Of a stretch of DNA of 64,000 nucleotides, positions 44,470 to 53,048 are shown in pieces. Each line of letters opens with the position of its first letter. Within the stretch, counting starts at the first letter, position 1. The DNA is from Sphingobacteriaceae bacterium (GTDB taxonomy: Bacteria > Bacteroidota > Bacteroidia > B-17B0 > Aurantibacillaceae), in the NCBI GenBank assembly GCA_023251725.1, contig JAHEYG010000006.1, positions 1-64,000 on the forward strand, given 5' to 3'. The position numbers and the translations under genes are program-made. Below the pieces are notes generated by a model. That model saw only the letters and a list, made by a program, of their open reading frames with translations, searched no databases and had not been told where the DNA came from.

Positions 44470-44886
44470 ATGGAAAAGAAAAAAATAAAATCAATAGCAT
44501 ATACTTTAACTGGCGCGATTGTTGGTTACTTACTTGTAAACCAGTTTTTATTTACTAAATCATTTGATGAACAAATGATGAAAATTGCCAGTGAATTCAA
44601 TAAACATTGTCCAATTATGGTCGACAAAGAAACTAGGATTGATAATGCAGTTGCATTACCAGAGAATACTTTTCAATATAATTATACTTTAATAAATTTA
44701 GTAAGAAGTGAGATAGACACAAGTTTGTTTAGTGCTTCTATTAAACAGAATATTCTAAACACAATTAAAACAAATCCAGACTTAAAACCATTTCGTGATA
44801 ATAATGCGAAGATGGCTTATAACTATAAAGACAAAAACGGAATTTTTATTTACAAATTTGTCTTTGGACCAAAAGATTACAAATAG
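44470..44886 (+). CDS. Small membrane-anchored protein coupled to kdsA
   Basis: 138 residues. An N-terminal anchor (SIAYTLTGAIVGYLLVNQFLF) is followed by a soluble domain with NKHCPIMVDKETRID and a final GIFIYKFVFGPKDY. The pattern of a cysteine-proline near a VD-x-x-TR-x-D phrase recurs in small uncharacterised membrane proteins of many phyla. Its ATG comes directly after the kdsA TAA. The function is not known. Confidence 0.7.
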   Translation: MEKKKIKSIAYTLTGAIVGYLLVNQFLFTKSFDEQMMKIASEFNKHCPIMVDKETRIDNAVALPENTFQYNYTLINLVRSEIDTSLFSASIKQNILNTIKTNPDLKPFRDNNAKMAYNYKDKNGIFIYKFVFGPKDYK

Positions 44887-44918
44887 CTAAAAGTAGTTAG
44901 GTGCAAATCGGCAATCTG

Positions 44919-44978
44919 CCCCCCCTTCCCCCCGCCAGCGGGGGATAATCACTTTAACCGTTCGCTGCGCTCACTACA
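44919..44978 (+). repeat. GC-rich hairpin repeat R1
   Basis: TCCCCCCGCCAGCGGGGGA forms a hairpin preceded by a C-run (CCCCCCCCT) and followed by an ATAATCAC segment and TTCGCTGCGCTCA. It is a direct copy of R3 at 45483-45540, outside the DUF559 gene on its left. Confidence 0.8.
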
Positions 44979-45056: not shown

Positions 45057-45091
45057 TTATCCCCCGCCGGCGGGGGAGCAAGGGGGCGGAA
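45057..45091 (-). repeat. GC-rich hairpin repeat R2, inverted, at the start of the DUF559 gene
   Basis: TCCCCCGCC (45060-45068) and GGCGGGGGA (45069-45077) form a perfect palindrome. After GCA comes AGGGGGCGG (45081-45089), the exact mirror image of the purine arm. It is an inverted copy of R1 and R3. The DUF559 ATG is four bases after it. Confidence 0.85.
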
Positions 45092-45093
45092 AA

Positions 45094-45540
45094 ATGCAAG
45101 CAACAAGAAAAAACTTTTTACTTTACAATAAAGTTCTAAGACCATACGCACTCAAAAACAGAAATTCCATGACAAAAGCAGAGGCCTGTTTATGGAAGCA
45201 TGCTTTGCGCGCACGAAAAATTAATGGACAAAGATTTAGCCGGCAGCGTCCAGTTATGAGTTACATTTCTGATTTTATGTGTAAAAAATTAAAATTAATT
45301 ATTGAAGTTGACGGCATCACACATCAATTTGAACCGGTAATAAAAAATGATATTATCAGGCAGAAAAATCTTGAAGCAGCAGGATTTACGGTGATAAGAT
45401 TTACTGATGATGAAGTGCTGGGTGAAATTGGAGAAGTAATTGAAAAGATTATTTTGGTTGTTGAGGGGTTGGAGAAAACCACCCCCCTTCCCCCCGCTGG
45501 CGGGGGACAATCACGGGAGGCCATTCGCTGCGCTCATTAG
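45094..45540 (+). CDS. DUF559 endonuclease-like protein between GC-rich repeats
   Basis: 148 residues from ATG 45094; a TTG at 45049 would translate the repeat and is rejected. The Vsr/PD-(D/E)xK-like core is clear: MTKAEACLW with the first acidic residue, FSRQRPVMSYISDF and LIIEVDGITH with the D...E-x-D metal site. The domain ends near IILVVEGLEK; the last 20 residues (TTPLPPAGGGQSREAIRCAH) are simply R3 translated to the first stop. DUF559 proteins are small nucleases of unknown biological role. Its strand, GC-rich borders and position as a lone gene between kdsA's small partner and ubiE suggest an inserted unit. Confidence 0.85.
   Translation: MQATRKNFLLYNKVLRPYALKNRNSMTKAEACLWKHALRARKINGQRFSRQRPVMSYISDFMCKKLKLIIEVDGITHQFEPVIKNDIIRQKNLEAAGFTVIRFTDDEVLGEIGEVIEKIILVVEGLEKTTPLPPAGGGQSREAIRCAH
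45483..45540 (+). repeat. GC-rich hairpin repeat R3 at the end of the DUF559 gene
   Basis: It is a direct copy of R1: CCCCCTTCCCCCCGCTGGCG then GGGGGACAATCAC and TTCGCTGCGCTCA. It encodes the C-terminal tail and stop of the DUF559 gene. Together with inverted R2 it brackets the gene. Confidence 0.85.
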
Positions 45541-52687: not shown

Positions 52688-52717
52688 TCCTCCCCCTCGG
52701 GGAGGATTTAGGAGGGG
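52688..52717. repeat. GC-rich hairpin with mirror arm between DUF59 and DUF2480 genes
   Basis: TCCTCCCC (52688-52695), CTC, GGGGAGGA (52699-52706), TTT, AGGAGGGG (52710-52717). The first two arms pair; the third is the exact mirror of the second. This is the same architecture as R2 at the DUF559 gene, with a different sequence. Confidence 0.85.
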
Positions 52718-52718
52718 A

Positions 52719-53048
52719 TTACATAAACCCCAATTCCAACTGAGCCACTTCACTCATCATTTCTTTTGTCCATGTTGGTTCAAAAGTTAATTTTAATTCT
52801 ACTGATTTAATTCCCTGCAATAATCTTAATTTATTTTCAACTTCGGCCGGTAAACTTTCGGCCACAGGGCAATTTGGCGAAGTTAAAGTCATAACTACTT
52901 TTAATTCACTTTCATCATTTAAATCCAATTCAAATATCAAACCCAGTTCCCAAACATCCACAGGAATTTCAGGATCGAAGCAGGTTTTAATCTCTTCGAT
53001 AACCCGGTTCATTAGTTCGGTATTTTTTGTAATTATTATTGCTGCCAT
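52719..53048 (-). CDS. DUF59/MIP18-like Fe-S assembly protein
   Basis: 109 residues of the DUF59 family: EIKTCFDPEIPVDVWELGLI, MTLTSPNCPVAESLPAEV and FEPTWTKEMMSEVAQLELG. The conserved cysteine is in TSPNCPVAE. SufT-like proteins of this kind help Fe-S maturation. It is three bases after sufE. Confidence 0.9.
   Translation of the reverse strand: MAAIIITKNTELMNRVIEEIKTCFDPEIPVDVWELGLIFELDLNDESELKVVMTLTSPNCPVAESLPAEVENKLRLLQGIKSVELKLTFEPTWTKEMMSEVAQLELGFM

Follow-up and report, generated by a model that had tools for sequence, protein, structure and literature searches.

E. coli has been known to carry BoxC/PIT repeats since the 1990s. In 2015 the survey of BoxC, PIT and TM repeats by Holder et al. 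covered 262 genomes, recorded 3610 copies of one repeat type and detected no linked mobility gene (PMC4666352). Mobility-conferring genes were never found near BoxC/PIT repeats in that work, and the flanking genes followed no pattern. For the TM-ECO repeats of this class, triplex folding in solution was demonstrated (PMC4666352). In general, a purine-motif third strand obeys the rule that A is placed on an A-T pair and T on a C interruption. Rickettsia palindromic elements (RPE) are a known case of palindromes that sit in frame within protein-coding genes. DUF559 is a widespread protein family of unknown role. A Caulobacter DUF559 protein induces SOS when the ScmA methylase is absent (PMC12907096), and the recombination hotspots of Legionella include DUF559 segments (PMC12308824). 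Both reports are compatible with an active nuclease; for the enzyme described here there is no biochemistry. The open-access literature searched contained no link between DUF559 and triplex repeats, preprints being outside the search, and a report that is unpublished or behind a subscription may still exist. The spread of BoxC/PIT repeats was also left without explanation in the literature searched, and we suggest DUF559 as the putative agent.

The window, meaning the whole analysed stretch of 64,000 nucleotides from a Sphingobacteriaceae bacterium, contains three GC-rich hairpins of 16 bp each (CCCCCGCYRGCGGGGG) at 44929-44944 (R1), 45061-45076 (R2) and 45491-45506 (R3), as found by reading the window and by a repeat search. 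All three lie within 580 bp around a DUF559 frame. With up to three mismatches allowed, 0.10 hairpins of this type are expected in the window by chance, and no shuffle gave three. At one mismatch or fewer they are the sole copies in the 3.1-Mb source assembly, which is about 75% complete. Each consists of a hairpin with a G-rich tail on one side only, whose sequence mirrors that of the stem's G-strand. R1 (44915-44976, minus strand) carries its C-rich tail to the left and reads CCCCCGC-TG-GCGGGGG-GAA-GGGGGGG on the minus strand. In R2 (45057-45090, plus strand) the hairpin, here counted as 45060-45077, is followed by the mirror tail AGGGGGCGG, giving TCCCCCGCC/GGCGGGGGA-GCA-AGGGGGCGG with eight of nine mirror triads. 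R3 (45479-45539, minus strand) begins with the C-rich tail CCACCCCCCTTC ahead of its hairpin and reads CCCCCGC-CA-GCGGGGG-GAAG-GGGGGTG on the minus strand, where all seven mirror triads are formed. R1 and R3 are direct repeats over about 57 bp, including the flank AATCAC..TTCGCTGCGCTCA, and R2 is inverted relative to both; the tails of R2 and R3 are both directed toward the gene. The core of R2, CGCCGGCG at 45064-45073, also matches YGCCGGCR, the methylation motif of Caulobacter ScmA (PMC12907096), which may be a coincidence. Elsewhere the window holds one further tailed hairpin rich in GC, TCCTCCCCCTCGGGGAGGATTTAGGAGGGGA, at 52688-52719 in an intergenic position with no adjoining DUF559 gene; it is a lone triplex-type repeat with an arm type other than that of R1-R3.

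The DUF559 gene (45094-45540, plus strand) codes for 148 residues of a PD-(D/E)xK nuclease resembling Vsr and homing endonucleases. It matches PF04480/DUF559 with E 4e-31 and 107 bits at a cut-off of 20.6; apart from a weak MTES_1575 match, Pfam reports nothing else in the unit, of which DUF559 is the sole gene. DDE, HUH, serine and tyrosine transposases are absent as judged by Pfam and the gene content of the unit. The ATG at 45094 follows R2 and its tail, which end at 45090, by four bases. The frame runs through the R3 hairpin (...PLPPAGGGQ...) to a stop 34 bp beyond it and 6 bp ahead of the stop of the convergent ubiE. Conserved residues are E30, D60, E71, D73, H77 and D86, the first five of which are kept at 99-100% among 90 proteins. 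With dN/dS values of 0.07-0.17 between DUF559 copies, the nuclease is under purifying selection. An AlphaFold model (pLDDT 84.8) found the Neisseria DUF559 structure 3hrl as its top PDB match (E 2.5e-8), followed by the homing endonuclease I-Bth0305I (3r3p, E 3e-3), with Vsr lower in the list. Between kdsA and the unit, a 138-aa frame at 44470-44886 gave no Pfam match and is missing from the same gap in the relative G005.

A first-pass annotation had described a DUF559 gene bracketed by three GC-rich hairpins, with R2 inverted to the direct copies R1 and R3 and the gene starting four bases after R2. These parts held in the window reading, the repeat search and Pfam, whereas an end of the frame inside R3 was not confirmed. 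Its comparison with REP palindromes needs correction, the repeats being of the BoxC/PIT triplex kind. Membership of the REP/RAYT system was rejected, as the unit contains no HUH domain and the palindrome ends of R1-R3 bear no GTAG or CGTC tag.

R1-R3 share the architecture of the BoxC/PIT intrastrand-triplex repeats, namely a C-stem, a loop, a G-stem, a short loop and a G-rich mirroring third block; that the window repeats fold into a triplex is inferred. They fall outside the TM-ECO subfamily. The arms CCCCCGC do not fit its pattern CCCTCNCCC N3-6 GGGNGAGGG N3 GGGNGAGGG, which is present in exact form (CCCCTCGCCCCTCTGGGGAGAGGGTTAGGGTGAGGGG) beside ycjD, the DUF559 gene of E. coli. Among the distinct copies of all fetched loci, 54 of 56 stems of the type GAGGGGG have GGGGGAGG as their tail, A going with A, and 114 of 117 GCGGGGG stems have GGGGGTGG, C going with T. 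Because copies share descent, these counts do not represent independent events. In the nine copies whose stem is mismatched and whose G-strand has an A or a C, it is the G-strand that the tail tracks. At the sequence level this is the pattern that a purine-motif third strand obeys. A perfect mirror of nine triads is formed by the Neisseria copy CTCTCTCCC-TGT-GGGAGAGAG-CTA-GAGAGAGGG.

DUF559 and triplex-type repeats are tightly associated, both physically and at the level of genomes. Eighty close DUF559 relatives, collected by protein similarity only, span Bacteroidota, Planctomycetota, Deltaproteobacteria, Ignavibacteria, KSB1 and others. A GC hairpin was found inside -300/+250 bp of the gene in 78 of them, and on both sides in 49. 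Hairpin density amounts to 2.44 per kb near DUF559 compared to 0.184 per kb farther off in the same loci (13x), and to 0.028 per kb at the ubiE loci of relatives used as a control. The tail of the nearest hairpin points toward the gene in a ratio of 40:6 upstream and 41:8 downstream. More distant DUF559 genes, read by eye in ten plasmid-collection records (among them Neisseria, E. coli, Sinorhizobium, Shinella, Azospirillum and three cyanobacteria), were accompanied by hairpin-plus-tail repeats of their own sequence in all ten cases; E. coli ycjD, Neisseria, rhizobia and cyanobacteria each have lineage-specific versions. The repeat type tracks the DUF559 tree, requiring 40 changes compared to a mean of 65.5 and a minimum of 57 in 200 shuffles.

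At the genome level, 396 Bacteroidia genomes were sampled, 192 with and 204 without DUF559. The CCCTCTCC-type repeat occurs in 70 of the former and 14 of the latter (Fisher p 2e-13 by genome, 2e-6 by genus), with 771 of 809 copies in DUF559-bearing genomes and 38 in those without. For the CCCCC-type repeat the figures are 21/192 versus 2/204 (Fisher p 1e-5 by genome), with 76 of 87 copies in DUF559-bearing genomes and 11 in the others. Neither tested type is present in 114 of the 192 DUF559-bearing genomes, where other types were not counted, and 16 of the 204 genomes without DUF559 carry one of the two. A reversed-motif control gave zero matches in every genome so checked. In E. coli, 37 sampled ycjD-bearing genomes have 16-31 repeat places and 22 genomes lacking the gene have 2-22 (median 6), a comparison confounded by phylogroup.

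Units of this kind also occur inside conserved genes. The strongest DUF559 match of the window genome lies within a leucyl-tRNA synthetase of 1191 aa (L295 92-3667, contig 132), which keeps its editing, catalytic and anticodon domains according to Pfam. The unit sits in the editing domain with both hairpins in frame: ...GTSLTFS-LIPGPSPREKGEE...DUF559...SSPLLGRGVGGEA-EISVFTTRPDT... Further downstream, the same leuS contains one gene-less repeat copy in frame (PPINSPLLGRGVGGEAENSY; peptide SPLLGRGVGGEA). Altogether 15 in-frame units of hairpin, DUF559 and hairpin were found in leuS, metH, hutU and hsdR: nine genomes share the same leuS site, one uses another leuS site, methionine synthase is the host in three, and urocanase and HsdR in one each. 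The hosts at L295, L117, L120, L121, L122, L126 and L132 are confirmed by Pfam, the remainder were read from the sequence. A hairpin is present on both sides in 15/15, with the tails outward; stand-alone units have them inward. In the protein tree the in-frame units form one clade. Within the genus of the window, the leuS insert is found in three of eight genomes (G000, the window genome, G001 and G006), and the other five show no DUF559 frame as long as this leuS. DUF559 frames of 1100-1400 aa had been considered as helicase fusions; those read turned out to be in-frame inserts in LeuRS, MetH, urocanase and HsdR.

The mobility of the joint DUF559-repeat unit is supported by independent lines of evidence; the enzyme that moves it and the movement of the window copy itself are inferred. 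The unit has discrete ends, since the similarity of loci in different surroundings ceases at TGTCCCCC... and ...GGGGGACA, and Splendidivirga harbors two copies in one contig that are 89.6% alike. In Pedobacter cryophilus, about 1060 bp comprising DUF559 and five repeats stand between flanks that are separated by only 15-18 bp in four sister genomes, which are empty sites of the unit. Brocadiales units are bounded by 18-bp outer inverted repeats (CATRCGTGTTAAGTTAAG), with target duplications of 10 bp; in five separate insertions the duplications are identical in 10, 10, 10, 9 and 8 of 10 positions, compared to a mean of 4 for mismatched pairs. When the Brocadiales flanks are rejoined, the site before insertion is in most of the five cases itself a repeat of the triplex type, e.g. 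CCTCTCTTGGGAGGGG-ATTTA-GGGGTGGG, and the unit therefore inserts into its own repeat class. The repeat is clear at L172, L223 and L235; the site at L242 lacks the C-stem and has two G-blocks around a loop, and that at L227 is a hairpin with tail, struck on its C-side. Gene-less Brocadiales copies of 359 bp retain a remnant of the DUF559 3' end. At L083, 3556-3816, we also noticed an unrelated repeated element of 260 bp, 81-91% alike in many Brocadiaceae genomes.

Target duplications and outer repeats were seen in Brocadiales only. The window copy has neither, and no target duplication was found for either G080 copy or for L049, L065 and L042. Outer inverted repeats were rejected as a general feature, with only 4/41 loci above the 99% level of mismatched pairs, two of which are matches between further hairpin repeats. 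In G005, the nearest relative with kdsA beside ubiE, the two genes are 75 bp apart; this is not an exact empty site for the window copy, because the neighboring 138-aa gene is absent as well. In E. coli, sapF-fabI had to be discarded as a clean empty site, as strains lacking ycjD carry the eefRABCD operon there, and the TM-ECO presence/absence sites adk-hemH, hrpB-mrcB and tauD-hemB showed no clean junctions or duplications. In E. coli alleles that lack a repeat, the intergenic region is a replaced one and offers no clean empty site. As a separate observation, E. coli hrpB-mrcB (L289) holds a TM-ECO pair 18 bp apart with tails inward, the geometry of the DUF559 unit minus the gene, and in one O111:H11 strain a deletion fuses the two hairpins.

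The first-pass annotation had proposed DUF559 as the partner that moves or maintains the palindromes, and had named as refutation homologues rarely flanked by repeats, repeats equally abundant without the gene, or no empty site in sister strains. None of these was met, as shown by the hairpins of the 80 relatives and the ten plasmid-collection records, by the genome counts for both repeat types, and by the Pedobacter empty sites together with the Brocadiales target duplications. The association is supported; an active role of the nuclease remains an inference.

We propose to read the locus as a single copy of a minimal mobile unit, a lone nuclease gene of the Vsr/homing-endonuclease fold between two BoxC/PIT-type repeats, whose G-rich tail could fold back as a purine triplex strand. 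The DUF559 nuclease would recognise repeats of its own type and cut both strands with a stagger where stem and tail meet; filling the break with a copy of the unit would then leave about 10 bp duplicated. The single repeats, hairpin pairs and internally deleted copies that are dispersed over the genome would be its non-autonomous remains. With moderate confidence, and without biochemistry, we favor such a nuclease-driven mobile-repeat system, REP/RAYT- or homing-like in operation and unrelated to RAYT. The homing-endonuclease fold and the insertion into the unit's own repeats help the inference that the nuclease drives the movement. Three points are inferred: DUF559 as the cutting enzyme, the folded triplex as the signal it reads, and past movement of the window copy by the same route. 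A bolder reading, which could be right or wrong with equal ease, takes the lone nuclease as the sole mobility enzyme of bacterium-wide mini-elements with triplex repeats as ends and targets; it would explain the spread of BoxC/PIT repeats and would have the elements enter essential genes in frame.

In the main rival reading the units are passengers: they ride in MITE-like elements whose outer inverted repeats are recognised by an ordinary DDE transposase acting in trans, and DUF559 is selected for another role. In its favor, the 18-bp outer repeats and 10-bp duplications of Brocadiales are typical of DDE elements, and in the Legionella study DUF559 adjoins a transposase in a thrice-repeated segment (PMC12308824). 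We nevertheless consider it unlikely: in 800 kb of G114 (about 21% of the genome) all seven outer-repeat-like sites lie in or beside hairpin/DUF559 units and none belongs to a transposase gene, the hairpin-gene link persists without outer repeats in most lineages including the window, and insertion into the unit's own repeat kind is expected of a self-targeting nuclease.

Even less probable is a housekeeping role, in which DUF559 would be a repair or restriction (VSP-like) enzyme resolving hairpins or triplexes, the repeats being tolerated and the gene merely kept alongside. SOS induction by the Caulobacter protein, VsrA, without its cytosine methylase (PMC12907096) and the scarcity of repeats in genomes without DUF559 speak for it, but it leaves unexplained the bracketing in fixed geometry, the repeat type that tracks the protein tree, the insertion into repeats, the gene-less derivatives and the in-frame units in leuS, metH, hutU and hsdR. 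The reading of the hairpins as terminators, as mRNA stabilisers of neighboring genes or as chance GC-rich palindromes can draw on inverted repeats located between the convergent DUF559 and ubiE, yet it is practically ruled out. No T-run follows the hairpins, the chance expectation in the window is low (0.10) and the reversed-pattern controls were zero in every genome so checked; repeats within the reading frames of leuS and other genes already contradict it, and earlier tests of E. coli PIT elements detected neither terminator nor promoter activity (reported in PMC4666352).

The link between DUF559 and BoxC/PIT repeats gives each a testable function, and with ycjD present in E. coli K-12 it can be tested in a laboratory strain. 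A PD-(D/E)xK enzyme acting alone would possibly represent a new class of transposition enzyme, and the repeats are a tangible example in which a DNA triplex may act as the recognition signal. The in-frame LeuRS copies illustrate a route by which repeat-coded peptides reach essential proteins.

Compared to known systems, the unit resembles REP/REPIN-RAYT (TnpA-REP) in its single nuclease gene flanked by short palindromes that are also dispersed genome-wide, and in having a mobile non-autonomous form made of inverted pairs without the gene. RAYT is an HUH tyrosine transposase, however, to which the PD-(D/E)xK nuclease is unrelated, and instead of the GTAG tag of REPs the DUF559-linked repeats have a mirror-symmetric G-rich tail and, where seen, 10-bp target duplications. 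With BoxC/PIT/TM-ECO (PMC4666352) they share the order of C-stem, loop, G-stem, loop and G-rich tail, the repeat beside ycjD fitting TM-ECO; the published work detected no mobility gene alongside them, whereas here DUF559 is linked, across numerous phyla and a variety of arm sequences. I-Bth0305I, of the EDxHD/Vsr-like homing endonucleases, has the closest fold of known function. Such enzymes are likewise encoded by selfish nuclease genes and show site-specific occupancy, as does the DUF559 unit at one leuS site in nine genomes. The unit differs in lying outside any intron or intein, in being bracketed by hairpins and in targeting a repeat family, not one conserved gene site, cleavage of the target being inferred. 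Unlike in RPE, the nuclease gene travels within the in-frame insert. Similar to MITEs and insertion sequences with a DDE transposase, the unit in Brocadiales has inverted ends, target duplications and internally deleted derivatives such as the 359-bp gene-less copies, but its sole gene codes for a PD-(D/E)xK nuclease of 120-150 residues.
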